Origin: Nitrososphaerota archaeon
GTDB taxonomy: Archaea; Thermoproteota; Nitrososphaeria; Nitrososphaerales; Nitrosopumilaceae
DNA: 64,000 nt
Assembly (NCBI GenBank): GCA_028867785.1
Contig: JAGWFS010000001.1
Coordinates: 267,488 to 331,487 of the forward strand
Reading direction: 5' to 3'
Under the pieces are notes generated by a model. That model did no database searches and had not been told where the DNA came from. It was given only the letters and a program-made list of their open reading frames with translations. Made by a program: the position numbers and the translations under genes. Within the stretch, counting starts at the first letter, position 1. Each line of letters starts with the position of its first letter. Positions 1,573-24,699 of this stretch are shown here, piece after piece.

Positions 1573-2775
1573 TTGAGCCAAAAACAGGTTTCAAAGAAAA
1601 AGGAATTTGTAATACATGATTACGATCACAAGATCAGTAACACATACGCTCTGATTGAAAAAGAACTATCGCCTTACAACATCGAACTAATAAAAAAATA
1701 TGATTCAGAACTTGTCAAACAATCTCTTGCAAAAGCGACCAGACTAAAACATCTACAGATACTTTTGAATCTCAGTCGGTTCATAAAAAAAGATTGGAAT
1801 GAAATTACAAAAGACGACATTGACAAACTTGTCATGAGGGTAGTTCAGCTCTATGGCAGCGATTCAGGACAGGAGACAAACACGACATGGGACCACAAGA
1901 AGATTCTGAAAATTTTCTTCAGATGGTTCAAGACAGGTTCCAGAAACTTTAGAGAAGTCGGAGACCCCATTGAAACAAAGTCTGTCAAGTTAAGACCGGT
2001 GAAAGACAACATTGTCCGTGAGGATCTCTTAACGGAAGACGACAGGACAAGACTGTTGTATGCATGTGGTGAAAATGCACGTGATAGAGCTTTCATTGAT
2101 GTTCATTTTGAAGGAGGTACTAGGCCGGGTGAGATTCTCAGCCTCAGGATAAAACATGTAAAATTTGACAGCGTAGGAGCTGTGATAAGCGTAGATGGTA
2201 AAACTGGGCCAAGGCCAATCAGACTCATAAGGTCAGTACCAAATCTTGCAAAGTGGCTCGATGTACATCCTCTCAAAAATAATCCAGAGGCTCCACTTTG
2301 GATGGTTCTTGACAAGTCAAGGTTTGGAGAACCTCTCAACAACTCCGGCGCAAGAGCCCTTCTTCAGAGAAGATGCGAGATGGCACACATGCTAAAACGT
2401 GTCAACCTCAAACTGTTCAGGCATTCTGAAGCCACGCGCTCAGCCAATTTCATGACTGAGGCGCAGATGCGTGTAAGGCATGGATGGACGCCTAGCTCCA
2501 AAATGCCTGCGAGATACGTCCATCTTGTAAGCGCCGATGTGGACCAAGCTTTGTTAAAGCATTATGGGATAGAAAAGGAAGTAGAGAAAACTGTAGTGCT
2601 CCCAAGAAAGTGCACTATCTGTCAAATGCAAAATTCTCCAGAATCTACAACGTGTTCAAATTGTGGAAGACCTTTCGATCTTGCAACTGCAATGAAGATT
2701 GATGATGCTACTGAGTCTCGACTTTCTTCGATTGAAGAGAAGTTGAACTCCTTATTGAGCGCACTTCAGAAATAA
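1573..2775 (+). CDS. Tyrosine recombinase/integrase with zinc ribbon
   Basis: Starts with TTG 45 bp after the tRNA. Catalytic residues are all visible: Arg184 (GGTRPGEIL), Lys210 (DGKTG), Lys280-x-x-Arg283 (KLFRHSEAT, the K-x-x-R form known from SSV-type integrases), His303/Trp305 and nucleophile Tyr315 (MPARYVHL). A C-terminal C-x2-C-x11-C-x2-C zinc ribbon (CTIC...CSNC) and a short coiled coil follow. It most likely excises and integrates element 1 at the adjacent tRNA-Ser. Its architecture matches the second integrase at the far end. Confidence 0.9.
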   Translation: MSQKQVSKKKEFVIHDYDHKISNTYALIEKELSPYNIELIKKYDSELVKQSLAKATRLKHLQILLNLSRFIKKDWNEITKDDIDKLVMRVVQLYGSDSGQETNTTWDHKKILKIFFRWFKTGSRNFREVGDPIETKSVKLRPVKDNIVREDLLTEDDRTRLLYACGENARDRAFIDVHFEGGTRPGEILSLRIKHVKFDSVGAVISVDGKTGPRPIRLIRSVPNLAKWLDVHPLKNNPEAPLWMVLDKSRFGEPLNNSGARALLQRRCEMAHMLKRVNLKLFRHSEATRSANFMTEAQMRVRHGWTPSSKMPARYVHLVSADVDQALLKHYGIEKEVEKTVVLPRKCTICQMQNSPESTTCSNCGRPFDLATAMKIDDATESRLSSIEEKLNSLLSALQK

Positions 2776-2832: not shown

Positions 2833-3435
2833 TCACATCGCATCTACCTCTGAATCAGAGCCGAGCGTTCTTTTTCTCGGAAAGTTTTGACTTGTGATGG
2901 TATCATAGGCTGCAATGTCGGAAATGACATCCGATGAATCGACTGCAACTCTTTCTGATGGTTGGTTGAATTTATCAACAAATTTATCCTGATTTTGTAA
3001 TTCTGTCGACATAGAGTAGAAATATTCTGGATTATCTTTCATTTCTTCGAACCTTGAGGCTTTCAGCTCTGCCGATTCTTTTTCTACTTCATACATTTCC
3101 TGCGGCATTTCAGAGAGGCTTGTTTCCTTTCTGAACTCGTCAATAGCTTTTTTCAGAATGTTTTCCGTAAGATCATCAAAGTCTTTGAAGTCTGTTTTAT
3201 GTTCTGTATATTGTCTTGCAAGAAACTCCCTGTAGCTTGGATCACTGTCAGAAAGTTTCGAAGGCCCGCTTAGCTCGGACCTGAGTACGCTGCTCTTTAG
3301 TTTCTTGTCGTATTCGCTCTCGGGTTGTGAGAACTGTCGGTAGGGCGCCAATGGGTCACGGTTTTGTAGATATCCAGATCTGCCACCTCTGCCATATCCG
3401 CCAAATCCCTTCGATGACTTGCTCTTGTAACGCAA
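2833..3435 (-). CDS. Hypothetical charged, disordered protein (200 aa), last gene of the E2/E1/HerA operon
   Basis: TTG start placed directly after the TAG stop of the ATPase, with GGAGG eleven bases upstream, so translation is coupled. The N-terminus is rich in Gly, Arg, Ser and Tyr (GFGGYGRGGRSGY), and the rest is highly charged with long helical stretches. I recognise no domain. Its fixed place behind the ATPase suggests an accessory or nucleic-acid-binding partner; that is inference. Confidence 0.75.
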   Translation of the reverse strand: MRYKSKSSKGFGGYGRGGRSGYLQNRDPLAPYRQFSQPESEYDKKLKSSVLRSELSGPSKLSDSDPSYREFLARQYTEHKTDFKDFDDLTENILKKAIDEFRKETSLSEMPQEMYEVEKESAELKASRFEEMKDNPEYFYSMSTELQNQDKFVDKFNQPSERVAVDSSDVISDIAAYDTITSQNFPRKRTLGSDSEVDAM

Positions 3436-5625
3436 CTATCCTGCATCCTCCTTGTTTCCCGACGGTTTCCCAGATTCGCTGTTTTCCGAAATGATGCTAC
3501 CTGATTTCTGCTGATTACCGCTACTTTCCCGTTCCTTTATTATAGAATATAACAACTCTACATAATCGCGTGCTAAACCTACCCATATCCTCTCATGAGG
3601 AATTTCCTTTATTTTCAAGAGACTTGACTTTGCTATCTGTGCGCTTGACTCTTCCTTGTACAAGAGCACTAACTCGTCTGCGTACCCATCAAGGACTTTT
3701 ACCTTATTTTCAATGTCCGTCGTAGTGGTCTCAATTTCTATTACTTTTCTGTAACCGTCTTTTTCTTCATAGATGTCAGTTCTTCGACCGTTGGGTAACA
3801 TTCTCTCAATGCTACCGGTCCAACCCAGTTTCTTATGCTGTCTTCTGATCAAGAATTGAAAATAACGATGCTCATATCCAGGATTAGTGCTAAGGAATCG
3901 CCAGTAAGAAATTCTCTGAGCAGATTTTCCCATAGTCTTGAATATCTCAAGAGTTTTCGGAGTGAGGACAAGATGAGCTCTGACATTTTGTATAACCGGG
4001 AACTTTATGATCCTGATCAAATCTTTTGAAATCAAAAGTTTTTTCACGTCAGCCATCTTGTGCGGTGAAATACCGAGAGCATCCGTTATCTGCTGCTGGT
4101 AGTGAAACTCGTTGTCAAACACATGGCTGAGGATTTTCCAAGCATCGTCAGGCAGTGTAGGTAGATACACATCCGAGCTTCTCTTTTCCACTTGGTGGAG
4201 AAACATCTTCGATTCAATCTCTTGCATCTTCATCTGCAACTTTGTAATGATTGGCTTTGATCTTGCGAGCACCTCGGCCTCTGCGACAAGATCACCCTTG
4301 CTCACCTCCGGAGTTTTCATGACAAACGGTTTCGTCCTGCCCGCAACGTTCACTATCCATGTTCCCTTTTGCAATTTTCCGATGAATTTCTCCTCGTCTT
4401 TTCCAAGACCTATCGAAGATGCCAAATCTTTTTGCAGATTCGATTCTACAACGTTTCCAATTATCTTTGTACCAGCATTGTCTTTGAAAGCGTCCATGAT
4501 TAGATGAGGGAACTGTGTAAGCGCAAACGTTCCCATCAGCAACTCTCTGCTCTGGCTGAAAAAGGTTGTAAGCGGCGGCGGAGATAACTCGCTTGCAACC
4601 AGGCTCTGTTCTTGGCCACTATAAGCTGACAAATGGGCTTCGTCCATAATTGTCATAACAAAGTTATCAAGGAAGAAACCATCTGTGAGAGTAGCCTTCC
4701 GGTTCATCCTGATCTGATTGTGAAGTCTCCGGTAGAACTCGTGCATCATAAACGTCTGGAAGAGGAAACTGGACGTCTCAAAGCGCAGGGGCCACATCTG
4801 TATTACTACCTGCTGGCGGAATAGTTCGTCAATCCTGAAACCATGTCTCACATTTACGACCTTATCGAGTGTATTGCTTATCTGATAGATTCTATTTTCC
4901 GCAACATCAGAATATTCTTTCTTTTTCATAGAAGATTCATTCTGTGCTCTTAGAAACTCTGCAAGATCCTTGAAAGTTATTTCTCCTTTCTTGTCCTCAT
5001 AGATGGTGTCAAGAGATTGTATGATGTAGTTCGGTGTTGCAAGAAGCAATGACTGGGTGTGTGAAAGAACATCGAGTACAACACCCCACCAAAGTCTTCT
5101 GTCCATTCCATCTGGAATGTTTGTCAGAGGATTGAAGGCAATGTCAGACCACCGCAAAAACAGAACATCGTCATATCTTCTTGCAAGAAATGCGTAATCG
5201 TTTTTCCAGTCCGGCATCATGAAGTGAATTTTATTTTTGATCAATTGATCAACAAAATGGACCACTAGGGTAGTCTTACCATGTCCAGAACGGGCAACTG
5301 ACAATATTGACTCACGTAAATTTTCGCATGTGAGACCAAACGGATAGAGCTCGATATCTCCAGCCATCACAGTACCGCTCTGTATGCCATCTCCTTTACT
5401 CTCCTCCTCACTTGGAAAACTCAGAACAGGATTTTTGGAAGACAGTATGTGGTCGGTGTAAGCAGGATCGACCAACGAGTTGATGTCTTGTATGGTATCT
5501 TTTCTTTCATTTTCGTCAAGATACGCAAGTATTCCAAGTAATGATTCTACAGAATCTTTGTCAAAATTTGGGATTCTCGAAATCTTATGCTTTGCCCCAT
5601 CTACGTAACCGTCAAGGTCAAACAT
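3436..5625 (-). CDS. HerA/FtsK-type ATPase with winged helix and PD-(D/E)xK-like tail
   Basis: ATG at 5625 chosen because GAGGT precedes it at good spacing and the previous gene stops two bases before. Walker A is GHGKTT (about residues 114-119) and Walker B is VMTIMDEAH. After the ATPase come a winged-helix-like part (about 490-570) and a segment RRTDIY...KVIEIETTT resembling the D...ExE core of PD-(D/E)xK nucleases of the RPD/IEVET type. The tail is Ser/Gly-rich, disordered and ends in Ala-Gly. Likely a DNA-pumping motor carrying a nuclease or DNA-end-recognition domain. It sits downstream of the E2-like and JAMM-E1 genes. Confidence 0.8.
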   Translation of the reverse strand: MFDLDGYVDGAKHKISRIPNFDKDSVESLLGILAYLDENERKDTIQDINSLVDPAYTDHILSSKNPVLSFPSEEESKGDGIQSGTVMAGDIELYPFGLTCENLRESILSVARSGHGKTTLVVHFVDQLIKNKIHFMMPDWKNDYAFLARRYDDVLFLRWSDIAFNPLTNIPDGMDRRLWWGVVLDVLSHTQSLLLATPNYIIQSLDTIYEDKKGEITFKDLAEFLRAQNESSMKKKEYSDVAENRIYQISNTLDKVVNVRHGFRIDELFRQQVVIQMWPLRFETSSFLFQTFMMHEFYRRLHNQIRMNRKATLTDGFFLDNFVMTIMDEAHLSAYSGQEQSLVASELSPPPLTTFFSQSRELLMGTFALTQFPHLIMDAFKDNAGTKIIGNVVESNLQKDLASSIGLGKDEEKFIGKLQKGTWIVNVAGRTKPFVMKTPEVSKGDLVAEAEVLARSKPIITKLQMKMQEIESKMFLHQVEKRSSDVYLPTLPDDAWKILSHVFDNEFHYQQQITDALGISPHKMADVKKLLISKDLIRIIKFPVIQNVRAHLVLTPKTLEIFKTMGKSAQRISYWRFLSTNPGYEHRYFQFLIRRQHKKLGWTGSIERMLPNGRRTDIYEEKDGYRKVIEIETTTTDIENKVKVLDGYADELVLLYKEESSAQIAKSSLLKIKEIPHERIWVGLARDYVELLYSIIKERESSGNQQKSGSIISENSESGKPSGNKEDAG

Positions 5626-5626
5626 A

Positions 5627-5845
5627 TCACAACCTCTCAAAAATTCTTAGCGAGAGAAATGACATGACCATGACAATTATTCCAATAATAGCTAGTTGCA
5701 GGTAGAAAGAGGGGAAAACTGTGGATAAGATCTGGTTGAAGAAGAGCACCAGTGCCACCGTTATCAGTAAAATTCCAAATCCCATCAGGACCTTCAGAAT
5801 CGTCCCTATCTGGCCAGAATTGTGTCTGCTACTGCTCGAATACAA
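5627..5845 (-). CDS. Small membrane protein (72 aa)
   Basis: A TTG at 5845, overlapping the 3' end of the upstream zinc protein gene, is the most economical start; a longer frame to 5911 would overlap more. Two hydrophobic segments (LMGFGILLITVALVLFF and LAIIGIIVMVMSFL) predict a helical hairpin in the membrane. It could anchor the ATPase or the whole complex at the membrane. No family recognised. Confidence 0.65.
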   Translation of the reverse strand: MYSSSSRHNSGQIGTILKVLMGFGILLITVALVLFFNQILSTVFPSFYLQLAIIGIIVMVMSFLSLRIFERL

Positions 5846-6422
5846 ATCGCTTGATCTCCCCGTCAAGGTGTTGCATGTCCCCTGTGCCGCCCCAGAGCTG
5901 GGAGTAGGCAAAGAGCGCCTCTCGACCCCTCTCGCTCAACCTGTGGCCGCGAATCATGTGGCTTTCAAGATAACCTGAACCTATGAGAAATTGCACAATT
6001 TCCTTGACGTCGTTTTTTGGTATTCCTGAAATCCTGGTTATGTCTCCTTGATTGGTGATGCTGTTAGCGACAATCAGCATGATTTTGAAACCCTGTCTTG
6101 AAAGAGGGTAGATACCCCTCAAACAGTCCGGGCAAATCACTTGCTTTCTGAATTCTATCGAACATTTTTCATCGAGCTTCTTACTGCACCTCTTGCAAAT
6201 CGAAAACGCCGACAGTTGATGCCCGCAGTGATCACATACAGGAACACGCTTGACTTTGACCATGCCGTTTTCTTTTGACATTTCGCTGCTCTCGAGTTTT
6301 CCTTCTTCTGCTATCTCAGTTCGATCCTCTTTGACGATCTTTTTTTCTGATTTTCCATTTTCTAAGTTAGACAGTCTATTTTCAATCTCTCCAAGTTTTC
6401 TCAGAACATCTGATTCTGTCAT
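5829..6422 (-). CDS. Coiled-coil, multi-zinc-knuckle, winged-helix protein
   Basis: Starts at ATG 6422 in a four-base overlap (ATGA) with the JAMM-E1 gene. Residues 1-55 are a charged coiled coil. Residues about 62-105 hold paired metal ligands (CDHC, CKRC, a lone Cys, CPDC), a RING/B-box-like spacing but not a canonical RING. Residues about 110-175 look like a winged helix (GDITRISGIPKNDVKEIVQ). In an operon with E2- and E1-like genes a zinc protein could act as an adaptor or E3-like factor; that is inference. It could instead be a transcription regulator. Confidence 0.75.
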   Translation of the reverse strand: MTESDVLRKLGEIENRLSNLENGKSEKKIVKEDRTEIAEEGKLESSEMSKENGMVKVKRVPVCDHCGHQLSAFSICKRCSKKLDEKCSIEFRKQVICPDCLRGIYPLSRQGFKIMLIVANSITNQGDITRISGIPKNDVKEIVQFLIGSGYLESHMIRGHRLSERGREALFAYSQLWGGTGDMQHLDGEIKRFVFEQ

Positions 6423-7729
6423 TTTCTTTTTCTCCCGAGTTTGTTTTTGATTTTCTCGACTATTTTCCCAGTCTTTGACTCTTCTTCTAATTTTCTCTCT
6501 TCTCTCTTCAACCAGTTTTCATAATCGCAAGTTGCGCAAAGATTTCTTTTCTGAACGTTCAATCTGTCTACTTTTAGATTGTCATAATATCTCACCAGAT
6601 TGAAACTGAACTCTTTACCGAGTAGAAGCCACAGTGCCATCTTTGCCATCATGTTTCCTGGAATGGAGATGTCTGCAATCATTCCCTGTGCTTCTTTGAG
6701 TTCACCATCTTCCAAACCATATTTTCTTTTGAGTGTGTTCTGATCAATTGCAGTACTTGTGAGTTGGAAAATACAATCAAAACATGGGTGATTTTTTCCC
6801 GTAACGCGGAAGACATACGCGCTTTTTGCACCCGCATAAATCCCTCCATAAATTACTGGTTTGTTGATCTCGACGCAGATTGAATTTATGTGATAGTTTA
6901 ATTCCGGATTTCCAGATGATGCGATTACAAGATCACAAGACTCTACAACTGAGCGCAATAACTCGTTATTCTTAATCAGGTCATCATTGACGGTCAAGAC
7001 ATTTGCCAGTGGGTTGTGATTCTGAATATGTTCTGACAGGATCGATGTTTTCGGATTTCCTATCTGTTGGATTCCCCCGGTGTGTCGGATCACATTCACG
7101 AGGGCAAACTCATCCATGTCGCAAAGGACATACTCTCCTATGCCGCTTCCTGCAAGGCCGGTGACAACAGCAGAGCCAAGGGAGCCGCATCCGAGAATCC
7201 CCACGCGCATTTTTTGCAGGGTTTCATTGTTCGTTATCTTGTCTATCCTGGAAACTAGGTCAGACTCGTCAAAATCGTCTGGAATTATCTGCAATGGTAT
7301 TTCTTTAAGGGATTCATCTTTGCCTAGCCCGAACACCCTCATCTCTCCGATGGAAGAGAAGACCCCTATGACAAACCACGGTCTCAAGTTTCTGGCCCGT
7401 TTCAGTTGGTTGAAATCTACACCGCTTGGATTTGGCGACTCTGGCCACGGGTGGGAATGAAAGTCAGACAGATACCTTACCTCGTCATCTATTGCTCTCT
7501 CATGTTCTAGAATTTTTGAGTTAGAAATTTCGTCTGTTGTAAAACTGATGTTATGTCTTTCTGTTCCTGGACCACCACTGACAATTTTTGTTATGACGTA
7601 AACTTTGTTTGTTCTTATCTTTCCGAGTACCATGAAGCCAGTCTCTTTCTTCTCGTTTGCGTATCGTTTCACTTCATCCCTGCACGTCGTCAGATCTTTT
7701 TCTCTGATCAGCACCTTCGATGGATTCAA
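6419..7729 (-). CDS. JAMM isopeptidase - E1-like (ThiF/MoeB) fusion
   Basis: TTG start overlaps the E2-like stop (TTGA). The N-terminal JAB/JAMM domain has Glu29, the motif His91-Ser-His93-Pro and Ser102-x-x-Asp105. The E1 domain has the Rossmann motif GILGCGSLGSAV (about 177-188) and CDMDEFALVNVIRH, the Asp and Asn/Arg typical of adenylating E1 enzymes, and paired CxxC knuckles (CFDC about 316-319; CATC near the C-terminus). JAMM domains cleave isopeptide bonds, and E1 domains adenylate the C-terminus of ubiquitin-like proteins. Fusion of both is known in prokaryotic ubiquitin-like operons. The C-terminal 40 residues are Lys/Glu-rich. Confidence 0.88.
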   Translation of the reverse strand: MNPSKVLIREKDLTTCRDEVKRYANEKKETGFMVLGKIRTNKVYVITKIVSGGPGTERHNISFTTDEISNSKILEHERAIDDEVRYLSDFHSHPWPESPNPSGVDFNQLKRARNLRPWFVIGVFSSIGEMRVFGLGKDESLKEIPLQIIPDDFDESDLVSRIDKITNNETLQKMRVGILGCGSLGSAVVTGLAGSGIGEYVLCDMDEFALVNVIRHTGGIQQIGNPKTSILSEHIQNHNPLANVLTVNDDLIKNNELLRSVVESCDLVIASSGNPELNYHINSICVEINKPVIYGGIYAGAKSAYVFRVTGKNHPCFDCIFQLTSTAIDQNTLKRKYGLEDGELKEAQGMIADISIPGNMMAKMALWLLLGKEFSFNLVRYYDNLKVDRLNVQKRNLCATCDYENWLKREERKLEEESKTGKIVEKIKNKLGRKRK

Positions 7730-8400
7730 CGGAACTGAAAACCTCCAAACTTGATTCTCTCGTTTATTTGTCTGAGAAGATTATCGACATCCTGTGTCGT
7801 AATGTTAACGTCATTTGTTTTTCTGACATAGTATTCCGGATTTCTTCCGTTTCTGTCATTGTAGTAATCATGAAGCCAGAAACACATCTGCACTGCAACC
7901 TTGAGGGCGCTCCAATCTTTTGTCCAGTAATGGATGTAGCACGGCAAGTTTCTCCCGTACCAGTGGCCTTGCATGTATCTCTGATCAAGGTCAGGGTACT
8001 CGACTACAACTTCCATCTTGACAAGAGGGTGCCTGTAATCATAAGTGAGCCTGAGCTTGTGTTCGATCCCGTTGATCCTGACATAGATGATAAAGTAAAC
8101 ATCGCCGGTGGAATAGTTCTGATGGAGACTGACTGGGAAAACTCTGGGAAACTTTTTCATTTCACTCAATTCCAAAATGAGTCTTCTTGCACCATCTGTC
8201 GTTTCGAAAAATTGGTTATGGCCGCCGACAACGTCGACAAAACTGCCGTTGAATATTAAAGAAAAAGGGGTTGTATGGGAGGATGCACCGTATGTGTGCT
8301 TGTCCATCTGTAGGCTCTCCGCAGGAAGAGATTCGACTCCTTCCCCTCGATCCAGATCAATGATCTTTCCTGTCGACTCAAGGACACGCTTATTGCCCAA
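7726..8400 (-). CDS. E2-like (UBC-fold) protein, predicted
   Basis: TTG start at 8400 is supported by GGAGGT six bases upstream. The central part reads as an E2 core: beta strands (VYFIIYVRING, HKLRLTYDYRHPLVKMEVVV), a YPDL turn, a His/Gly flap, then Cys154 in GRNLPCYIHY followed by TKDWSALKVAVQMCFWLHDYY. This matches the layout of prokaryotic E2 proteins, with the catalytic Cys followed by a W...WL..Y helix. It is the first gene of an operon with a JAMM-E1 fusion. The assignment is from pattern only; sequence similarity to known E2 families is low. Confidence 0.6.
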   Translation of the reverse strand: MGNKRVLESTGKIIDLDRGEGVESLPAESLQMDKHTYGASSHTTPFSLIFNGSFVDVVGGHNQFFETTDGARRLILELSEMKKFPRVFPVSLHQNYSTGDVYFIIYVRINGIEHKLRLTYDYRHPLVKMEVVVEYPDLDQRYMQGHWYGRNLPCYIHYWTKDWSALKVAVQMCFWLHDYYNDRNGRNPEYYVRKTNDVNITTQDVDNLLRQINERIKFGGFQFR

Positions 8401-8489
8401 GGCTTACCTCCACGAACCCATTTCCTGAACACAGGAAGAGGGTACCAATTGGTTTCCTCGTGTTCTTCGTTGCTTGTTCAATTTTATTC

Positions 8490-8598
8490 AAGTTATCTTA
8501 TAATAAGTGAACTCTTGTTAATTAAGTTATCTTATTTTGAGTTAACTATCTCGGATCGTATATCAAATATTTAAAGACGTTATCTTACTTTAAGATAG
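8490..8598. promoter_or_regulatory. Three-copy operator in a divergent promoter
   Basis: GTTATCTTA occurs at 8492, 8526 and 8579. Copy three is a perfect inverted repeat (TATCTTA, 3 nt, TAAGATA; 8581-8597) and the other two are imperfect. Copy three lies between the TATA-like AAATATTTAAAG (about 8564-8575) and the ATG of the gene at 8606; copies one and two lie upstream of a TATA-like AATAAAATT for the leftward E2/E1/HerA operon. A shared repressor for both directions is likely; a candidate regulator is the TrmB- or HxlR-like protein nearby. Confidence 0.65.
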
Positions 8599-8605
8599 TG
8601 AGTAC

Positions 8606-9595
8606 ATGAGTATCACCACAAAAAAATCGAAGGGAATAGAATATGTATACTTCCAAGCAGGTGTTGGCAAGACCCTCTATCTAGGCCCAAAAAGTGACTT
8701 GTCTAAAATAAAAGCATCTAATGTCTTAGAAGCTTTGGACTATGTCAAAAAGAGAAATTACGATTATTCAAAATTAGAGGAAAAACTTGTCTTGATGCTT
8801 TCACCAGAAGATAGAGACACATATCTTACTAAGAGAATTCCAGAAGTTCAGACACTGTTAGATAGCGATGTTTCACATTTGTCGGACTCTGTCAAACAAC
8901 AGTACCTTTCAAGAGGTGAACAAAAGGCAGTAGAGCCGACAAGGCTTCGGCGACTTGAACCAGAAATGGAAAAAGATCTAGCAATTCAAAATGTACAAAA
9001 TAACAACTACTACCTTCAAACAATAAAAGCGTATAATATTCCTCCTTTCATTATAGAAAAAATTGCAAGCGATTGTAACTCTAACTTAATTAAAAAAGGA
9101 AAGATCGAAGACCGTTTACGAAGTATGAATGACTCGGCACGAAAATTATTACACCGGGTTTTTGTTGATTGTGAAGATGATCCTGAGGGCATTTATGCTA
9201 ATTACCGCTTTATGGCTTACATTTCAAGCATGTTCTTCAAGTGTGAAATTTTATTAAATGAAAAAATTCCCGGCGCATCAGGCAAGATTCACAAAGTTCC
9301 ATTAGCAGTAAAGAGCAACGGCATGTACATTGCAGTAGCCCTCAACAAATCAAAGGGATACCCGGTTTCTAAGAGAGAAGCAATCAAGTTTTATGAGATG
9401 GTAGATGACATAAAAAAAGGCGAACACGGGAACCATCTTGCCGAAGGAATTCTGGGTTCCTCCGTAGGGTTTGACGGAGAAGCCCTTGTAACTTTAGAAA
9501 AATTAAGCGAATCTCGTAAAAAAGACTCCAAGAATAAAACATATCTCAAAACAGCAAATTTTGAAAATAGAGTATATTCTGTTACTCAATATTGA
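8606..9595 (+). CDS. Hypothetical protein (329 aa), possible degenerate nuclease fold
   Basis: ATG start 8-10 bases after the third operator. No confident family. Residues about 235-310 (VPLAVKSNGMYIAVALNK, then VSKREAIKFYEMV, then SSVGFDGEAL) follow the strand-strand-helix order of restriction-endonuclease-like domains, with the usual Asp and Glu replaced, so any nuclease activity would be lost. The N-terminal half is helical and charged. It is transcribed divergently from the E2/E1/HerA operon under the same operators, so it may act with that system or control it. Confidence 0.75.
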   Translation: MSITTKKSKGIEYVYFQAGVGKTLYLGPKSDLSKIKASNVLEALDYVKKRNYDYSKLEEKLVLMLSPEDRDTYLTKRIPEVQTLLDSDVSHLSDSVKQQYLSRGEQKAVEPTRLRRLEPEMEKDLAIQNVQNNNYYLQTIKAYNIPPFIIEKIASDCNSNLIKKGKIEDRLRSMNDSARKLLHRVFVDCEDDPEGIYANYRFMAYISSMFFKCEILLNEKIPGASGKIHKVPLAVKSNGMYIAVALNKSKGYPVSKREAIKFYEMVDDIKKGEHGNHLAEGILGSSVGFDGEALVTLEKLSESRKKDSKNKTYLKTANFENRVYSVTQY

Positions 9596-9642: not shown

Positions 9643-10008
9643 TCAAATGACGACCCGCACAAACTTTCCGTTCTTCCTCAACTCATCCCTGAAGTGCTCA
9701 ATCAGCACATCCACCTCCCGCAGAATACACTTCCTCTGCGTGAGGTAGTCGTTCGCGAATCGGAGGAACGGCTTCGCCTCTATCTCCTTAGGTCTGTCGC
9801 CGGACATCTCCGCCAGACCCTTGAGCATCAGGCAGTACACCGTGTTGTAGACTTTCGCCTGCGGGACTCCCGCGCACTTCCACAGGTTGCCGGCGGTTGT
9901 TTTGCCGAGAACCTGTAGGGCGAAGAATGTCCTCGCCTCGTACTCGTTCAGACCGAACGCGGCGAACTTCTCCACGATGTCCTTTCCCTTGCCGTTGAGT
10001 TGGAACAT
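9643..10008 (-). CDS. TrmB-like winged-helix regulator (121 aa)
   Basis: GGAGG stands ten bases before the ATG. Residues 10-75 read as a TrmB-type winged helix (FGLNEYEARTFFALQVLGKTT, then VPQAKVYNTVYCLMLKGL). The sugar-binding C-terminal domain of full TrmB proteins is absent; only a short helical tail remains. It probably regulates element genes. GC content is visibly higher here than in neighbouring genes. Confidence 0.8.
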   Translation of the reverse strand: MFQLNGKGKDIVEKFAAFGLNEYEARTFFALQVLGKTTAGNLWKCAGVPQAKVYNTVYCLMLKGLAEMSGDRPKEIEAKPFLRFANDYLTQRKCILREVDVLIEHFRDELRKNGKFVRVVI

Positions 10009-10163
10009 TCAGTTCTCCTCCGATTTTTCGGGGAAGAGGGGGTTGCCCTCCCCTTCTCCTCGACCCGCCAGAGCGCGATTCTCCCGAGAATCTTCCTCTT
10101 CTTCGGGTCTTTCTCTCCTGACTGTATGACTCCAGTCAGCACGGGTTGCTTTCCATTAGCCAT
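9948..10163 (-). CDS. Small basic protein overlapping the TrmB-like gene
   Basis: ATG at 10163 has GGAGGT eight bases upstream. The first 35 residues (ANGKQPVLTGVIQSGEKDPK onwards) look protein-like and basic, but the frame then runs 61 bp into the TrmB gene with Ser/Arg-rich low-complexity sequence. Shifting by one base near 10060 would end the protein in NPLFPEKSEEN just before the TrmB ATG. Either the overlap is real, or the sequence holds a frameshift, or there is programmed shifting. Function unknown. Confidence 0.5.
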   Translation of the reverse strand: MANGKQPVLTGVIQSGEKDPKKRKILGRIALWRVEEKGRATPSSPKNRRRTECSNSTARERTSWRSSPRSV

Positions 10164-10299
10164 CCTCAAACACCTCCGTTCGGTTAATTCCGGAGCCGAG
10201 CCATCTGGTTTCAGCGGAGCGGCCTTTTCTCTGTCAGAAAGAAAAGGGGAAACCAGAATGAGCGAAGGCGGAAAATTCTAAAAAGATAAAATAATTTTT

Positions 10300-13140: not shown

Positions 13141-15336
13141 CTAATGAAAAGTGATCATAAAGGAAGCACTTTGATATTTATTGTTAGAGTCATCTTCTGC
13201 AAGAAATTCAATATTTCCATTGTGTCTTTTCAGAATTTCATGACTGATGAAAAGCCCCAGTCCTCTACCATCTGGTTTGCTTGTTACAAATGGACCGTGA
13301 AAAAGGGCTCTCTTGATGTTTGGTGAAATCTTGGAACCATTATTGCTTATTGTTATGGTCTTGTTTGCTGCGTTAACTACGATGCTTAGTTTTCTATCAT
13401 TCATCTCACTTTTTACATTAAGCCAGTAGGTTGCATTTGCAATCACATTGTCAAGCACCTGTGAAAGGGACGCAGTAGATATTTTTGCAATAAAGTCATC
13501 GCCATCAGGATATTCAATTTGAATCTGGTTATCATTGATGTAGGAAGCATGAGCATCGAGTGACATTTTGATCACTTCTCTAACTTTTACTTCCGGATTT
13601 GCAGCCATTTTTCTGACATATCTTGCAGCCCCCATGAGGATAACCTCATTCTTTAAAGAATCAAAAATATGCCTCAGTGCCTTTATGTTTCTGTCATATG
13701 GGTGTCTTTCTTCCAGAGCCCTCAGGTTTCCGGATAGACCTGCAACCATCCTCTCGAATTCATGCGAGAAGCGTTCTGCTGCAAGTCCTATTCCCATCAG
13801 ATGAAGAAATGCCTCCCGTTTTTCTTCCTGAACTTCTGAAAGTTCTTTGATTGTTTCTGTCATAGAAGCGTTAACTCCGTGTACCTGTTCTTCTAGATCG
13901 TGCAATTTTTCTACAGGAATTTCCACCACGTTGGTTTTGACAGGAATTTCTTGAATTGCTTCAATCTGGGCTTCAGTGGCAGTAGCAGTTTGTGGAGCTG
14001 GAATCTCTACCGTTTTTTGTGGAGATGATTTCATTTCTTCAATCTTCTTTTCCAATTCGTTTAATTTTGTTTTCAATGCCTTTGCGCTTTCTGTAGGTTT
14101 TTTCATACTGGATCTCTGCTCGATGCTTTCAGTTTCCAGAAGTGTGAGAACTCCAAGGGTAAGATCACGCATATCGAAGTAAGCTTCGCCTTCTTGCAGG
14201 CCCTCTCTGTTGGTTTTATCTATCAGGTTTCTATTTTTTTCTTGGGATATTTCCACCTGACCTATTACTTGGTTGTTACCATATTTGTCACCTGGTTGAT
14301 TGGTCCTCCTCAGATCGAGACCAAGCCAGTCGTCTCCACTGTCACCATAAGGAAGAATTCTGAAACCGTCCCTGTAAATGCTCATGCCTGCAAGAATATC
14401 AAGCTGGGCCCTAGTTAGATCATAATTTTTCATATTCTCTGTTCCTCTGAGCCATGCACAGATTACTACTCTGAAAGAGCCACACATCGGATCAAATTTC
14501 TCCCAGTCTTCGTTTACCTGAGACCAGAGGTTGGTATTTTCGACTTTTACTTCCTCTATCTTTCCATCCTTGCTCCTGTTGTAGTAAGTGTATGTAGCCA
14601 TTCCCTTTTCGTCTATCAGACAATCGATTTTAAACTGGAATTTACCAAGTATGTCTCCTCTGTCAAGATCCTCGAGTTCTGGATATTCTTTACATTTGAA
14701 ATGTACTGAGAAATTCTGGATTGCGTTTGTGGGAGAAAGTAGTCTTATCAAGCTTGCTTGGAGTTTCTGAACATCCAGTCGTTTCCATGGAGTTCTTGCT
14801 TCTTTAATTACAAGTCTTGTCCCATGCTTATCACCGGTAAATACCTGTGGCGATTTTTTCTCAAGCGGAAATCCTATTTGATCAAGATAGGAATCAGCCT
14901 TGTCAAAAATATTCCAGTCTATGTTTACATGATACTCTATAGAGCTTCCCTCAGGACGTGTTACCATCTCAAGATATCTTCCAAGTTTCTGCGATGCAAA
15001 TCGTCCGACGCCCTTTTCTCCCAGTGGAAGTCTTCCTTTTTTTGATGGTTTTAGTTTGTCCTTTTCATTTTGTTTTCCTCCATGTGCAGGCTCACACCAG
15101 GGTCCTTTTATTGTAGCCTCATCCATGCCAGTTCCATCATCTTGAATTATAATTTCAGTTCTGGTAGGGTCTGACAGATTCTTTAGCTCTACAGTGACAT
15201 TTTCTGCGTCTGCATCATAACCATTTTTTATTAATTCCATGACACCCACAGTGTTGTCTCTTATGAGATGTTCTCCCAGAATCTTTACCATTCTTGCTAC
15301 TGGTTTCAGATAGAGTTTGTCGTCGCTATCTGTCAT
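13141..15336 (-). CDS. Two-headed GHKL ATPase (MutL/MORC-like N-terminus, histidine-kinase-like C-terminus)
   Basis: N-terminal Bergerat fold: N-box MELIKNGYDADA (Glu34, Asn38), DDGTGM (66-71), GEKGVGRFA (106-114). The middle (150-420) is unassigned. A Pro-interrupted coiled coil follows (about 420-510). The C-terminal part has an H-box-like AERFSHEFERM (His near 525) and a second complete Bergerat fold: VLDNVIANATYWL, ISNNGSKI, GRGLGLFISHEI. GHKL ATPases of the MutL/MORC type are known from restriction-modification operons. The start lies two bases after the HerA stop. It may be the ATP-driven switch of the HerA-NurA machine; no response regulator is nearby. Confidence 0.85.
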   Translation of the reverse strand: MTDSDDKLYLKPVARMVKILGEHLIRDNTVGVMELIKNGYDADAENVTVELKNLSDPTRTEIIIQDDGTGMDEATIKGPWCEPAHGGKQNEKDKLKPSKKGRLPLGEKGVGRFASQKLGRYLEMVTRPEGSSIEYHVNIDWNIFDKADSYLDQIGFPLEKKSPQVFTGDKHGTRLVIKEARTPWKRLDVQKLQASLIRLLSPTNAIQNFSVHFKCKEYPELEDLDRGDILGKFQFKIDCLIDEKGMATYTYYNRSKDGKIEEVKVENTNLWSQVNEDWEKFDPMCGSFRVVICAWLRGTENMKNYDLTRAQLDILAGMSIYRDGFRILPYGDSGDDWLGLDLRRTNQPGDKYGNNQVIGQVEISQEKNRNLIDKTNREGLQEGEAYFDMRDLTLGVLTLLETESIEQRSSMKKPTESAKALKTKLNELEKKIEEMKSSPQKTVEIPAPQTATATEAQIEAIQEIPVKTNVVEIPVEKLHDLEEQVHGVNASMTETIKELSEVQEEKREAFLHLMGIGLAAERFSHEFERMVAGLSGNLRALEERHPYDRNIKALRHIFDSLKNEVILMGAARYVRKMAANPEVKVREVIKMSLDAHASYINDNQIQIEYPDGDDFIAKISTASLSQVLDNVIANATYWLNVKSEMNDRKLSIVVNAANKTITISNNGSKISPNIKRALFHGPFVTSKPDGRGLGLFISHEILKRHNGNIEFLAEDDSNNKYQSASFMITFH

Positions 15337-15338
15337 GT

Positions 15339-16973
15339 TTATTCCTCTACATGTTTTCTTTTACTCATACAGGGCCTTACATTACAGAACATGGGCCTAT
15401 TCTTGAAGAATGAGCTTATGAAAAGACATGTACCCTGTCCGAGTTTTGGAACATCATCCCATACACTGGGATCGACTCCCCCTGTAGAGTTTTTAATTGC
15501 ATCGAGATTTTTCCCACCCGTAGTCTGATGTGCGATTTTGGTATTGCACAGTTCGTATATTTCCGGTGGAAGGTGCGATGGCTGTTGACTGATAAAACAT
15601 AGACTGATCCAGCGTTTACGACCTCTTCTAGATATTTCTCTAAGAACATCAAGTGTCTCCTCCATTCTACTGGCGTTATCTTTGCTCACAAATGTATGAG
15701 CCTCCTCAATTACTATCATCACATTTGGAAGTTCTTTCTTCTTGTCCTTCAGTTTTAATTCGAAAATACTTCGCAGAAGATCCGTTATCACGATATTGTT
15801 TATCTGAAAGTTTGATGATCCACTAAAATCTATCACACTGACTTTGTTTGCCTGGAGAAGTTCACTGTAATCTCCAAGAGTTTCCTTGCTGTCAAATATC
15901 CCGTATCTCTGAACTCTTCTGAGTTTTCTTCGTAGTACATAATAGGAAGCTTTGTTTGTTCTTTCTTCGTTATTTTCCAGAATTGAATCAATCTGTTTTA
16001 TTATATCATCAAGTTTTATTCCAAGAGCAGGACCTCCCTCGAAGCCCTCCATCACACTTTTCACGAAACCTGCACTGGTTTTAGTTTTCTTCTTGGTAGA
16101 GTATTCTTTCTGGGCAAGGTTATGCCATATCTCAAGGAATCGGTCTGTCTGTGCCTGGGTCAGTCCAAGAATTTCTACCAGAATCTGCGGTTCAATATTG
16201 GAAAATCTAATACCGAAAGCTTTTGAATCTGATCTTGATGGTTCTGTTTCTACCGGGTGATACACGTCAAGCGCTCTTACTCCTTCTGGTTTTACACCAA
16301 ATTCCGTGAAAAGATGACCGAGTGATTTCTGCTCTGACGGTTTATCCATATCAACATACTCTCCTTCTACGTCAAGTACGATAACTGCCCAGTTGTGTTT
16401 TGCAGCTTCTTCTATCAGCACCTGACTAGTATTGGTTTTTCCAGATCCTACAGTTCCAAATATTCCAACATTTCTCGGTAATGCAGCATTTTTGTCACTT
16501 GGAATTCTTACTCTAACGCTACTGTAACCGTCAAGCTTTCCTATGTACATATCGCCTGAAAGTTCGAGGAGTTTTTCAATCTGCTCACCTGTCAGGGGGT
16601 AGACAGCTGCCTGTGGTCTTGGTCTTACAAAAGTTCCATGTGTTTTCATCTGTGCAACATCAAGTTCTCCCATTATCTGTGCATAACAGATTCCATGAAA
16701 ATCAGGTCTGAATTTTACTTTACCTGCATGTAGAATTGCAGCCCTTGCAAAAGCAGAATCCTTGCTTACTGCATCAGGAACAAAGAATGGCCCTCTTGAT
16801 ATTCTTGCAAAGAAATCTCGTTTTTTACTGTCAAAATCTGATTCAATTCGGACGTACTGACCACGTCGTATATCATGAAGTGTTTCAGATGGGATCCTTA
16901 CCTCAAGTTCATTACTGTCTGTAGTCCCACCATCGAAGTTGACATAACCTATTGCTTTTTGCTCTTCTACCAT
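15339..16973 (-). CDS. HerA-type hexameric DNA translocase
   Basis: The N-terminal 150 residues fit the HAS barrel. Walker A is VGSGKTN (Lys179), Walker B VMIVIEEAHTF, and a sensor region follows (LCFISQQPSHLPPEIYELCN). Length 544 is normal for HerA. HerA pumps DNA and, with NurA, resects ends in archaeal break repair. Here it overlaps the nuclease gene by one base, the usual HerA-NurA pairing, but in a mobile element next to a methylase, which points to a defence role rather than housekeeping repair. Confidence 0.9.
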   Translation of the reverse strand: MVEEQKAIGYVNFDGGTTDSNELEVRIPSETLHDIRRGQYVRIESDFDSKKRDFFARISRGPFFVPDAVSKDSAFARAAILHAGKVKFRPDFHGICYAQIMGELDVAQMKTHGTFVRPRPQAAVYPLTGEQIEKLLELSGDMYIGKLDGYSSVRVRIPSDKNAALPRNVGIFGTVGSGKTNTSQVLIEEAAKHNWAVIVLDVEGEYVDMDKPSEQKSLGHLFTEFGVKPEGVRALDVYHPVETEPSRSDSKAFGIRFSNIEPQILVEILGLTQAQTDRFLEIWHNLAQKEYSTKKKTKTSAGFVKSVMEGFEGGPALGIKLDDIIKQIDSILENNEERTNKASYYVLRRKLRRVQRYGIFDSKETLGDYSELLQANKVSVIDFSGSSNFQINNIVITDLLRSIFELKLKDKKKELPNVMIVIEEAHTFVSKDNASRMEETLDVLREISRRGRKRWISLCFISQQPSHLPPEIYELCNTKIAHQTTGGKNLDAIKNSTGGVDPSVWDDVPKLGQGTCLFISSFFKNRPMFCNVRPCMSKRKHVEE

Positions 16974-18064
16974 TATTTCACCCTCATCCGTCTTTCACCA
17001 GATTCTCTTAGATAGTTATCTGTCTTTGCAAGCTCCCAGTCGACCATGTGATTGAACTGGGCACCGGAGAAATACTCAGTACAAAGATTATCCGCATAAT
17101 CAATTAAAAGCGGAAATCCCTTTTCCTTCTGAAACATCGAGTCTCTCGCAATTATGGCTGCAGCAAGATCAAAAATATCCTTGTGTGCGTGGAAAACATA
17201 CGGGCGATCACTGATTCTTATGACTCCTATGCGAATCTGTGATGCATAGTCTTTGATAAAATCTTCAACTTTCTTTCTCTCTTCTTCTCTCCATTTGTTG
17301 CTCCAAGCAAGGAAATCGCTTGTGGTAGTAAGATGATGTTCCAGAGTATAATCAGGAGAAGTGAGATATTGTCCATTTTCAATTGCAAGCCCGAAATATG
17401 TGTAGTCCTTGTATGATGATGAAGAAATAATACTCATTACTCGTTTGGAATTGACTATTTTTTTCAGAATATCTAGAGTCACATCAAGAGCACGCAGTCT
17501 TCCAAGACCTGACATGAGCTCAAATGGCAGCAGAGGTCCATGATAGAGAATGTATTTTCCATCAAATTTCGGATTCATTCCGGCCTCGCGTTCCCGGTAC
17601 ATCATTAATCCACGAAGATGCATATCAGATAGATTATCGTCGCTTTCTGCTCGTTGAACTATTCTTTCAAGAACATCATCAGCTTCGTCACGTAAGTTTG
17701 CCTGTGAAATGAAAAAACTATGCTTGATCTGTTCGCCCTGATAATTCACTGCAATGACTCCGATCTGACATCGTACTCCTGAAAGCAGATTGTATTTTGC
17801 CATAGTTGCATCAACACCAACAACACTGCCTTCTGTCAGGAGTTTTTCTGCCCTGTCAAGATTTTCTGAAACATCTTTTACAGTTAATTTCTTGAAGGCG
17901 TCACTTTTTTTGAGATCTGCAATGAGTTTAGCTTCTCGTTTTGAATTTTCTGTAACCTCTTTTGATATGATTGTTGGAACCTGACTACAGAAATCAGAAT
18001 AACTGGTCCATGTTTGTTGCTGGCTTAAAATGTCAGAAAAAGTCATTTTTTTCTCGGTGCTCAT
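16973..18064 (-). CDS. NurA-like nuclease
   Basis: 363 residues. NurA hallmarks are an N-terminal acidic motif (VVGVDATMAK, Asp85), a central helical region, and the C-terminal PLLIDYADNLC motif. NurA is a 5'-3' exonuclease and single-strand endonuclease that works inside a HerA ring. Stop TAA overlaps the HerA ATG. The gene starts 74 bp from the divergent glycosylase gene, so this gap holds both promoters. Confidence 0.8.
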   Translation of the reverse strand: MSTEKKMTFSDILSQQQTWTSYSDFCSQVPTIISKEVTENSKREAKLIADLKKSDAFKKLTVKDVSENLDRAEKLLTEGSVVGVDATMAKYNLLSGVRCQIGVIAVNYQGEQIKHSFFISQANLRDEADDVLERIVQRAESDDNLSDMHLRGLMMYREREAGMNPKFDGKYILYHGPLLPFELMSGLGRLRALDVTLDILKKIVNSKRVMSIISSSSYKDYTYFGLAIENGQYLTSPDYTLEHHLTTTSDFLAWSNKWREEERKKVEDFIKDYASQIRIGVIRISDRPYVFHAHKDIFDLAAAIIARDSMFQKEKGFPLLIDYADNLCTEYFSGAQFNHMVDWELAKTDNYLRESGERRMRVK

Positions 18065-18137
18065 TAAAAATCCTCTTTAAACCTAGATCGTGCAGACTTA
18101 AAAGTTTGCAGATGTTTATGATATTGAATTACGAAAT

Positions 18138-18821
18138 ATGTTTGATAATGATGAAATAATCAAGAAAAAAATAGATAGTAGAAAGGACCAATTTGTAAAT
18201 AATCTAATAAAATGGGCTGCGAAAAATACACCCGAATATCCGTGGAGGAAAACATCTGATTCTTACCGCATACTGGTATCGGAAATGCTTCTGCGAAGAA
18301 CGCGGGCATCCAGTGTAATAGCAATTTATGAAAAATTCATAGAAAAATTTCCGGACATTTCTCATCTTGCAAAAAGCCCCATTAAAGATATAGAGTCATT
18401 GGTAAAATCCCTTGGAATGAAATCTCGATCTTCCAGAATAAAATTTGTTGCAGAATCAATCATGAAAAAATATGCGGGAAAAATACCCTCTGAAGAATCC
18501 GAATTACTTGAAATCATAGGGAAAGGGAGTTTTTACACTGTTAATGCGATAAGGTGTTTTGGGCTGAATAAGAAAGTAGCAATTTTTGATGTCAACGTAA
18601 AAAGAATACTGGAAAGGGTTTTCTCAATAGATTTTGGAAAGGACGCTCACAAGAAAAAGAGCTCGTGGAATCTAGCTTCCTTACTTTTGCCTCAGGAAAA
18701 TGTAAAACAGTACAACTGGGCATTGCTTGACCTTGGTAAATCCATCTGTACCGGAACAAACCCAAAGTGCAGTATCTGTCCACTGAAAACTATCTGTGAC
18801 TATGCATTGGTGAAGAAATAA
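18138..18821 (+). CDS. HhH-GPD DNA glycosylase, T:G-mismatch type (Mig-like)
   Basis: Helix-hairpin-helix (ELLEIIGKGSFYTVNAIRCF) with Tyr133, and catalytic Asp151 (FDVNVKR). The Tyr-to-Asp spacing of 18 equals that of Tyr126/Asp144 in Mig of Methanothermobacter, as I recall them. Endonuclease III has Lys at the Tyr position. The C-terminal [4Fe-4S] motif C-x6-C-x2-C-x5-C (204, 211, 214, 220) is intact. Mig-type enzymes remove T formed by deamination of 5-methylcytosine. The gene overlaps the 3' end of the convergent m5C methylase by 32 bp, a fitting partner. Confidence 0.87.
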   Translation: MFDNDEIIKKKIDSRKDQFVNNLIKWAAKNTPEYPWRKTSDSYRILVSEMLLRRTRASSVIAIYEKFIEKFPDISHLAKSPIKDIESLVKSLGMKSRSSRIKFVAESIMKKYAGKIPSEESELLEIIGKGSFYTVNAIRCFGLNKKVAIFDVNVKRILERVFSIDFGKDAHKKKSSWNLASLLLPQENVKQYNWALLDLGKSICTGTNPKCSICPLKTICDYALVKK

Positions 18822-19971
18822 CGCGTTGACTAATAGGAATTTTCATCGTATCCATAATTGCAACTGCTACTGCTTTTGCGAAAAGTGGCGGCACAGCATT
18901 TCCTATCTGTCTGAACTGGTGTGTCATATGTCCATGAAAGACATAACCATCATCAAATGACTGTAAGCGCGCAGCCTCTCTGGGCGTAAGACTACGATTC
19001 TGTTTTCCATCCGGATGTATGAACATCAATCCGTCCTTGGCAAGATGTGCAAGAATTGTAGAAGATGGCCTATTCCAGTATTGTTTCTTGTACTTGTCTT
19101 CAAAGATGTCTTTTCTATAAGGATTGAATCTTTCAGGTAAATCGCTAATCCACTGACCGGGTTTTAGCATGCTGAATATTTTCAAATCTCTCTTGTTATG
19201 AATCCTAGCAAAATGATTGAACACCCCGCTGGAACCGCGACGTCTTTCATACTGGTACTGGCTTCTTGCTTTTCTGGTATATCTGCTGAACTCTTTTCCC
19301 TCATCAGCATGCAGAAAAGGAAGATCAGATATGGCAGTACGCACCGTTTCATATGGCTTTCCACCTCTTGGAATATCTCCATCTTCTGGATCAAAATGAG
19401 TCTGTTTGACTTGTGGATTTGGAAGACCCAGTCTGTTTCCAATCACAAGACATCTTTTTCTAGATTGCGGTACTCCAAATTTCACTACATCTTCATCGTA
19501 AAAGTCAACATTGTAGGTATTTTTCAAATCGTGTTCAATTGATTTTTTGATTACTCCGTCTTCAATGTAGGTCATCCTTCTTACGTTTTCCATAACGAAA
19601 AATGATGGTTTCATTTCTAGTATGATTCTGATAAACTCCTTGTAAAGCTGATTGAGTGGATGTTTTGATGTCCTCGGTGAACCCAGTGATTTTAGCTTAC
19701 CAACTGCAACGGTGCTAAAGCCCTGGCAGGGTGGCCCTCCAACAATGATGTCAACTCCATCATGTCCAGTTTTTTTCTTGATAAATTCTGCATCAATATT
19801 TTCAATGCTTTCAACTATTCCACATCCATGCCTTGCAGTGTATGTTGCAATTGCATTTTTGTCATTGTCAACACCAAGAATTATCTCGTAACCTGCCTGT
19901 CGGAAACCCTCCGAGAGGCCCCCGGCACCACAGAAGAAGTCTGCAACTGTCAGTGTATCGGAGTTTTTCAT
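18790..19971 (-). CDS. DNA cytosine-5 methyltransferase
   Basis: All main m5C motifs are present: I (FFCGAGGLSEGF), IV with catalytic Cys82 (GGPPCQGFS), VI (ENVRR), VIII (QSRKRCLVIGNR) and X (RQIGNAVPPL). The target-recognition region lies at about 250-320. The protein is intact at 393 residues. No classical restriction endonuclease gene adjoins it; downstream are the glycosylase, then NurA, HerA and GHKL ATPase. It probably marks host DNA as self for that cluster. Recognition site unknown. Confidence 0.93.
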   Translation of the reverse strand: MKNSDTLTVADFFCGAGGLSEGFRQAGYEIILGVDNDKNAIATYTARHGCGIVESIENIDAEFIKKKTGHDGVDIIVGGPPCQGFSTVAVGKLKSLGSPRTSKHPLNQLYKEFIRIILEMKPSFFVMENVRRMTYIEDGVIKKSIEHDLKNTYNVDFYDEDVVKFGVPQSRKRCLVIGNRLGLPNPQVKQTHFDPEDGDIPRGGKPYETVRTAISDLPFLHADEGKEFSRYTRKARSQYQYERRRGSSGVFNHFARIHNKRDLKIFSMLKPGQWISDLPERFNPYRKDIFEDKYKKQYWNRPSSTILAHLAKDGLMFIHPDGKQNRSLTPREAARLQSFDDGYVFHGHMTHQFRQIGNAVPPLFAKAVAVAIMDTMKIPISQRVISSPMHSHR

Positions 19972-22490: not shown

Positions 22491-22565
22491 TACGAAGAAA
22501 GTGTAATCAGATTAAAACCGCTTTACGTGTGTATTTTTCCGATAGATTTGTTGTAATGACAACAA

Positions 22566-23357: not shown

Positions 23358-23358
23358 G

Positions 23359-24174: not shown

Positions 24175-24269
24175 AGTCTTGCCTAACAAGACTTTAGTTA
24201 CATAAGTATTAAAATATATTCCTTGTAACTATAGTCTCGTCTAACAAGACTTTCGTTACATAAGTATTA
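24167..24269. repeat. Tandem 45-bp operator repeats of the AbiE operon
   Basis: Two direct copies (24167-24211 and 24225-24269, 41 of 45 identical, 58-bp period). The first copy contains the inverted repeat GTCTTG-CCTAA-CAAGAC and an outer pair GTAAC/GTTAC; the second has one changed base in the left arm. The first copy overlaps the AbiEi start codon, so binding would block initiation. Confidence 0.85.
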
Positions 24270-24298
24270 TAGTTAATACACGAATGGTGGGGGGGGTA

Positions 24299-24523: not shown

Positions 24524-24699
24524 TTGCCGGCCTCCATCCTTTCAGTAAAACATTTGGGACACAGAAGATCATCATCTATCAATTGTAAACATTTTCCACA
24601 TCCATTCTTCCAGCACTTGCTACAGACTCCGAGACCGTTGTAGGAGTTGAGCGAGTGACCGCACGACAATGTTACAGTTTCAAAATCACCTATCATCTT
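24520..24699 (-). CDS. Zinc-binding microprotein (59 aa)
   Basis: ATG at 24699 chosen because GGAGG lies ten bases upstream; a longer frame to 24789 has no such support and overlaps another gene. Ligands: Cys-Gly-His, CSKC, CGKC, CPKC. Overlaps its neighbours at both ends by a few bases, forming a three-gene microprotein operon. Function unknown. Confidence 0.7.
   Translation of the reverse strand, partial: KMIGDFETVTLSCGHSLNSYNGLGVCSKCWKNGCGKCLQLIDDDLLCPKCFTERMEAGK

Follow-up and report, generated by a model that had tools for sequence, protein, structure and literature searches.

Why should an archaeal genome place genes for ubiquitin-type conjugation enzymes ahead of those for a DNA motor? 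The locus that raises this question lies in a 64,000-nucleotide stretch of the thaumarchaeal (Nitrososphaerota) assembly GCA_028867785.1 (contig JAGWFS010000001.1, positions 267,488 to 331,487; hereafter the window), where an operon at window positions 2833-8400 encodes an E2-like protein, a fusion of JAMM and E1 domains and a HerA-type ATPase, next to an integrase gene. The original prediction, made from the DNA alone, was that a conjugation cascade controls or tags a DNA-translocating nuclease in a mobile element, possibly as a new defence or transfer system. The reading that we tentatively favour is that an integrative element's membrane-linked DNA machine is here combined with an optional, unconventional conjugation cassette, which probably regulates the machine. 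The genes concerned are the following.

7726-8400, minus strand: E2 (UBC)-like protein, 224 amino acids, with candidate catalytic C154 (from fold matches and a conserved motif)
6419-7729, minus strand: JAMM-E1 fusion, 436 amino acids, with an N-terminal JAMM/JAB domain and a C-terminal ThiF/E1 domain containing CxxC...CxxC (from Pfam)
5829-6422, minus strand: coiled-coil, cysteine-rich (zinc) and winged-helix protein, 197 amino acids, a member of the constant core (from homologs)
5627-5866, minus strand: two-helix membrane protein (from its hydrophobic sequence and homologs in loci L011, L012, L063 and L066)
3436-5640, minus strand: HerA/FtsK-family ATPase, 734 amino acids, with a winged helix and restriction-endonuclease-like tail at residues 477-698 (from Pfam, motifs and an AlphaFold2 [AF2] model)
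2833-3435, minus strand: low-complexity, helical protein, 200 amino acids (from homologs in L011, L012, L063 and L064)
1573-2775, plus strand: tyrosine-recombinase integrase with a zinc ribbon (Pfam Phage_integrase, 8e-9)

A check of the open reading frames (ORFs) of the window finds all six leftward genes in place, in the order listed. The E2 and E1 genes share four nucleotides (TTGA, 7726-7729), as do the E1 and zinc-protein genes (ATGA, 6419-6422); the zinc-protein and membrane-protein genes overlap, those for the membrane protein and HerA overlap by 14 nucleotides, and the HerA gene and the last gene abut (3436/3435). Because each gene overlaps or abuts the next, we read the six as a single transcription unit, and because their order is identical in two further genomes (see below) the arrangement is not a chance one. 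Judged from its homologs, the membrane-protein gene has a TTG start at either 5866 or 5845, although the ORF stays open to 5911, and the low-complexity protein has a conserved N terminus (KGFGG..SGY...DPLA.YR). The six leftward genes are thus confirmed, and the identities first proposed for them supported, by ORFs, overlaps, Pfam matches, motifs and six-gene synteny.

Relatives of the E2-like protein were sought with the protein itself in 300 genomes of the class, and with profiles in 250 genomes of the family and 300 of the phylum. The protein search returned two, L011 (G225:C66) and L012 (G025:C1), from two genomes of a second genus, each with the six genes in identical order and an integrase adjoining; the profile searches added no further E2. 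The window itself belongs to a 392-kb contig of a 2.5-Mb genome, which its relatives, a Nitrosotenuis metagenome-assembled genome among them, mark as thaumarchaeal. In both L011 and L012 the integrase gene is on the same strand as the last gene and overlaps it, whereas the window has a different, convergent integrase, which is nearest to that of L063 (E 3e-165). Compared with their counterparts in L011 and L012, five of the window's genes are about 46-66% identical and the last is 33-36% identical; against L011 alone, amino acid identity is 52% for E2, 66% for E1, 46% for the zinc protein, 55% for HerA and 33% for the last protein. Outside these genomes, scans of IMG/VR with E1, HerA and E2 alignments gave no relatives, phages gave just ThiF-like proteins, and plasmids gave no E2 and weak HerA matches, with the E1 matches that were opened being CBASS (cyclic oligonucleotide-based antiphage signaling system) Cap2 or MoeB/ThiF-type genes. 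A scan of genome contigs with narrow patterns returned solely the G225 copy.

HerA profiles also detect relatives that lack E2, in G225:C48 (948 bits), G054, G112, G083 and G296. Among the 250 family genomes there are seven HerA-core loci in six genomes, three with E2/E1 and four without. In the E2-less loci the zinc protein and HerA, in most cases with the membrane protein and in many with the low-complexity protein, stand behind another front gene, which is an AAA+ ATPase in L063 and a member of a family of ~200-amino-acid proteins in L064, L065, L066 and L070. Weak B-box/RING matches had suggested an E3 identity for the zinc protein, and this was dropped because the protein is also present in elements without E2/E1. 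We note that the G112 HerA homolog (L065:8241-10325) is broken by an in-frame TAG, reflecting either decay or a sequencing error.

Comparison of L011 with L012 shows that the parts of the operon have different histories. Their DNA is mostly 85-95% identical in the core but 60-70% in E2, most of E1 and the integrase, with the 3' part of E1 intermediate, and the protein differences match these DNA boundaries: identity is 95% for HerA and 90% for the zinc protein, but 70% for E1, 66% for E2 and 63% for the integrase. Recombination explains the contrast better than rate, because between the window and L011 the E1 (66%) is more conserved than HerA (55%); the pattern is thus better explained by E2/E1 cassettes and integrases having been swapped against a common core. 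On these comparisons, the HerA core is the element's constant part and E2/E1 an exchangeable front cassette. Since the HerA module is found without E2/E1, and since the cassette is exchanged independently, the module is not built around a conjugation cascade. The proposal that such a cascade controls or tags HerA therefore stands in part: the same ATPase is present in all three carriers of the JAMM-E1, but the core also exists without the cassette, which has been swapped separately.

The same observations bear on the alternative that E2 and JAMM-E1 are independent cargo, occupying the first operon slot for host manipulation or counter-defence and not acting on HerA at all. HerA cores without E2/JAMM-E1, recombination of the cassette apart from the core and unrelated front genes elsewhere are what independent cargo would predict. 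However, the same HerA core lies directly downstream in three of three E2 carriers, joined through four-nucleotide overlaps, and no E2 occurs away from the core in the 250 family, 300 class and 300 phylum genomes, and we consider free cargo unlikely.

The setting is otherwise that of an integrative element. Every other same-genus genome that the searches listed lacks both E2 and HerA, so the distribution is sporadic, which together with the integrase is a mark of such elements; in four loci the integrase adjoins a tRNA gene. The mobile setting first proposed is therefore upheld by the integrase beside the operon, the sporadic distribution and the related integrase-bearing elements, and the relatives suggest a machine that belongs to integrative elements.

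How the cassette might work depends first on the JAMM-E1 fusion, in which Pfam recognizes Prok-JAB (5e-5, residues 24-123) and ThiF (1e-31, residues 167-394). The JAMM motif HSHPWPESPNPSGVD (residue 91) is intact in the window protein together with E29, and the isopeptidase signature (Glu plus HxHx7-8SxxD) is kept in all three homologs as E29 and HSHPW...PSGxD. The E1 adenylation (Rossmann) domain is also present, its best sequence relative in the PDB being UBA5 (4e-15), with MccB, ThiF and MoeB also among the relatives; against profile models it scores best with CBASS E1-E2 models (98 bits), followed by ThiF and 6A-MBL models. Of the motifs that had been read from the DNA, the JAMM and Walker ones are intact, and the JAMM, E1 and HerA domains are backed by Prok-JAB, ThiF and DUF87 matches. 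In UBA5 the cysteine of GVCAASLPTT is the catalytic one. This segment aligns with GLEDGELKEAQ of the E1, where Cap2 proteins have VACGG and AGCGE, and the position of the catalytic cysteine is Asp or Glu in all three family members; alignment with UBA5 and Cap2 reveals no crossover-loop cysteine in any of the three. With Asp or Glu in place of cysteine throughout, the usual E1 thioester is impossible at that site, and a conventional cascade is doubtful.

Another reading would place the JAMM-E1 outside any thioester cascade, as a processing or adenylating enzyme of the MccB/MoeB kind, acting in peptide maturation or sulfur transfer with the E2-like protein as a binding partner. The Asp/Glu in the three homologs, the MccB, ThiF and MoeB relatives and the lack of an encoded ubiquitin-like protein (Ubl) would agree with this. 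Nonetheless, neither the JAMM motif nor the E2 cysteine and its neighboring His and Trp vary, which suits conjugation and removal of a tag, and we regard an MccB/MoeB-type function as very unlikely.

The E2-like protein has no match to a sequence family in Pfam and other profile searches. Its AF2 model is weak, with a predicted local distance difference test score (pLDDT) of 55.6 overall and 65-78 in the core, but E2 enzymes (UFC1, Ubc15, UbcH7 and Ubc9) account for 43 of its 50 top fold matches in the PDB, with UFC1 in the lead (best E 0.07). An E2-type motif, GHWYxxxxPCYIHxW, which includes C154, is invariant in all three homologs. Structure prediction thus lends moderate support to the UBC fold that had been suggested, and we consider it likely that the 7726-8400 product has this predicted fold; our confidence is limited by the modest fold scores and an empty comparison with Cap2 profiles. 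Neither of the two outcomes that would have undone the original reading, a 7726-8400 product lacking this fold and JAMM-E1 genes never accompanied by the ATPase, is thus what is seen, with the first judged on a weak model.

The ATPase is recognized by Pfam as DUF87/HerA (5.5e-5; 23.8 bits, just above the 23.2 cut-off), and has Walker A (ARSGHGKTT, residue 116) and Walker B (IMDEAH, residue 331) motifs. Residues 477-698 are modeled with confidence (pLDDT 90) as a winged helix followed by a restriction-endonuclease-like domain; structures that match the fold include MarR regulators, Can2/Cdn1 nucleases, the R2 retrotransposon protein and AF1548. The tail motif reads RRxD...ExE...ENK (619-646; D622...E635xE637...K646), its last part being of the form DxExK; the lysine is off its usual PD-(D/E)xK place and may have been relocated. 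The restriction-endonuclease-like tail originally noticed is supported by its fold, with its activity a prediction. A replication-relaxation (Replic_Relax) identity for the tail was also considered and dropped, as Pfam gave no match at E 1.

The main rival explanation is a defence or element-exclusion system carried by the element, in which HerA would feed invader DNA to the nuclease tail and the cassette would arm or restrain HerA in the manner of CBASS primed by Cap2/Cap3. In its favor, the E1 domain scores best with CBASS E1-E2 models, there are weak HerA matches to mad8 and to defence HerA models, a defence-like gene cluster lies downstream at 13-20 kb, and modular exchange is compatible with an arms race. 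However, the genes flanking L011 and L012 are ordinary or metabolic and not those of defence islands, no consistent defence-island setting is seen across the loci, the core moves with integrases, AAA+ or unrelated genes can take the place of its front module, and PADLOC models give no strong match apart from the generic E1 domain. A defence role is thus possible, but on balance rather improbable.

If the cassette conjugates a tag, where would the tag come from? No Ubl or Gly-Gly-ended product is encoded in the operon of the three loci, and no CD-NTase-like gene was recognized among the operon genes and profile matches, bearing out the two absences from the operon that had been remarked on. Nor does any operon protein have a Gly end that is conserved across all three elements. 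The HerA C terminus, considered as a CBASS-like tag, is Gly-ended in the window and L011, and is unsupported because the L012 HerA is Asp-ended. In the host, a search confined to ThiS, which a divergent free Ubl could escape, finds ThiS-type domains only within fusions, one a Ubl-E1 (...AVAGGSELSS...) and a second (...VVHGGSKRAN...) that fits the Ubl-Cgi121 arrangement reported in thaumarchaea (PMC2948915). An archaeal JAMM enzyme cuts pro-ubiquitin and a ubiquitin-GFP fusion (PMC5654768), and by analogy we hypothesize that the element's JAMM could free a host Ubl from internal Gly-Gly fusions.

Under the favored reading, of a DNA machine with an optional cassette, we infer that the core (the zinc/winged-helix, membrane, HerA and low-complexity proteins) most likely acts as a DNA translocator linked to the membrane, which would handle element DNA for transfer or segregation. 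The E2 and JAMM-E1 would probably join a protein C terminus to targets in a reversible way: the E1 should adenylate the C terminus, which, given that this E1 lacks the usual thioester cysteine, probably goes straight to C154 of the E2, and the JAMM domain would mature or remove the tag. The tag would come from outside the operon, the best candidates being the host Ubl domains in fusions, whose internal Gly-Gly-Ser may make them releasable by the JAMM. The most likely role of the cassette is to switch this machine or to mark proteins of the element. A more specific version, in which the cassette with its cysteine-less E1 reversibly tags the HerA-nuclease machine with a host-derived tag and so switches DNA transfer or excision, is doubtful; if true, protein conjugation would be one level at which archaeal DNA mobility is controlled.

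Several points weigh against the favored reading. An E1 without its cysteine may be unsuited to a thioester cascade. The model behind the E2 fold is weak (pLDDT 55.6), and profile-profile comparison of the E2 candidate with two Cap2 E2 domains returned nothing. Carriers of E2/JAMM-E1 number three. The HerA matches to CedD, mad8 and HerA subfamily models are all weak and, as sequence comparisons, do not separate transfer from defence. No attachment-site (att) duplication or attachment repeat was found in the flanks obtained, and the element ends are consequently not fixed. Finally, no relaxase or pilus genes were recognized beside the operon, and no VirB4/VirD4 pair, TadC/VirB6 or pilins in the loci read, where neighboring ORFs were not all profile-searched.

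Among known systems that share parts is the bacterial type 6e operon, with a poly-Ubl, an E2/RWD-like protein, a JAB-E1 fusion and a metal-binding protein (Iyer et al. 2006; PMC1779556). The JAB domain fused N-terminally to E1, the separate E2-fold protein and the zinc-finger protein are shared, but type 6e has the poly-Ubl gene, a cysteine-less (inactive) E2-like domain and no HerA, whereas the archaeal operon has no Ubl and its E2 candidate keeps C154. Type II CBASS (Cap2 E2-E1, Cap3 JAB; PMC10097602) shares the E1, E2 and JAB activities and the lack of a di-glycine Ubl in the operon; unlike CBASS, the present operon has no CD-NTase or cyclic-nucleotide effector, its E2 is separate, its JAB is on the E1 and the E1 catalytic cysteine is missing. 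Bil and type 6d require a stand-alone Ubl with E1, E2 and JAB, and none is found in the three loci. The Caldiarchaeum subterraneum ubiquitin operon (PMC5654768) similarly clusters an archaeal E1, E2, zinc-domain protein and JAMM protease, but is cellular and includes ubiquitin and a RING E3, where here there is a mobile element with HerA and no Ubl. UBA5 and UFC1 of the UFM1 pathway are the top E1 sequence relative and the top E2 fold match, and UFC1 likewise lacks the classical HPN motif; the similarity is distant, UBA5 has the catalytic cysteine, and here there is neither this nor UFM1. The cryptic integrated elements of thaumarchaea (PMC6563490) are likewise small, integrase-bearing and mostly of unknown content, and four loci here are tRNA-adjacent; ubiquitin, ThiF and JAB are unmentioned in that survey. 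The DNA-import ATPases CedB and CedD (PMC11868833, PMC9905601) share the HerA/FtsK superfamily and a link to membrane proteins, and among NCBIfam models CedD matches the window HerA best (4.6e-5, far under the family cut-off), but the winged-helix and restriction-endonuclease-like tail and the gene set differ. An E2/JAMM-E1 set combined with a HerA machine in a mobile element was not found in the open-access literature, and its novelty is provisional because the search covered open-access papers only.

Upstream of the operon, the element carries three further features.

8484-8587, no strand: divergent promoter region with three TAAGATAAC repeats (from a repeat count)
8606-9595, plus strand: divergent gene, whose N-terminal part is found in the corresponding position in L063, L064 and L065
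9643-10008, minus strand: TrmB-type regulator at the far end of the element (Pfam TrmB, 1.6e-13)

All three copies of TAAGATAAC in the 64-kb window sit in 8484-8587, where 0.62 would be expected by chance window-wide, and these repeats are a possible operator. Five loci (the window, L011, L012, L063 and L064) have the TrmB-type gene at their far end. Just upstream of it is a small conserved ORF at 9948-10169 (MANGKQPVLTGVIQSGEKDPKKRKILGRIALWR), also present in L011, L012, L063 and L064.

Elsewhere in the window, the left end (1-303) has two direct 114-nucleotide copies, 89% identical and 189 nucleotides apart. The cluster at 13141-19971 resembles a defence island, with a GHKL/MutL-like ATPase, a HerA, a NurA-like partner, a base-excision-type glycosylase and a DNA cytosine methyltransferase; these genes were named by reading, the HerA alone being found by profile. 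At 20688-27345 is a second element-like set, with a zinc-ribbon HerA-type ATPase (NCBIfam CedD 7e-19, VirB4 4e-16) that has its own C-terminal extension, an AbiE-like toxin-antitoxin pair, an integrase and an Orc1/Cdc6-like AAA+ gene; its combination of ATPase, integrase and AAA+ gene is also seen in L066, directly adjoining the HerA-core element. The window's second JAMM-domain protein (29132-29560) adjoins a coiled-coil gene outside the operon, and the region 44825-49735 has a third integrase (48647-49735) with an AAA/HerA-like ATPase gene (44825-46672; Pfam AAA_10 1e-5) that has a C-terminal extension.

Prokaryotic E1/E2/JAB sets have hitherto been linked to sulfur chemistry, cellular Ubl systems and phage defence. 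In the archaeal mobile elements described here, a set of this type precedes a DNA motor and is replaceable by unrelated genes, and the cassette, if it works, must do so with neither an E1 thioester cysteine nor its own modifier. The locus thus offers a small, testable case of the recruitment of ubiquitin-type chemistry, and a handle on the DNA movement of the cryptic thaumarchaeal elements.

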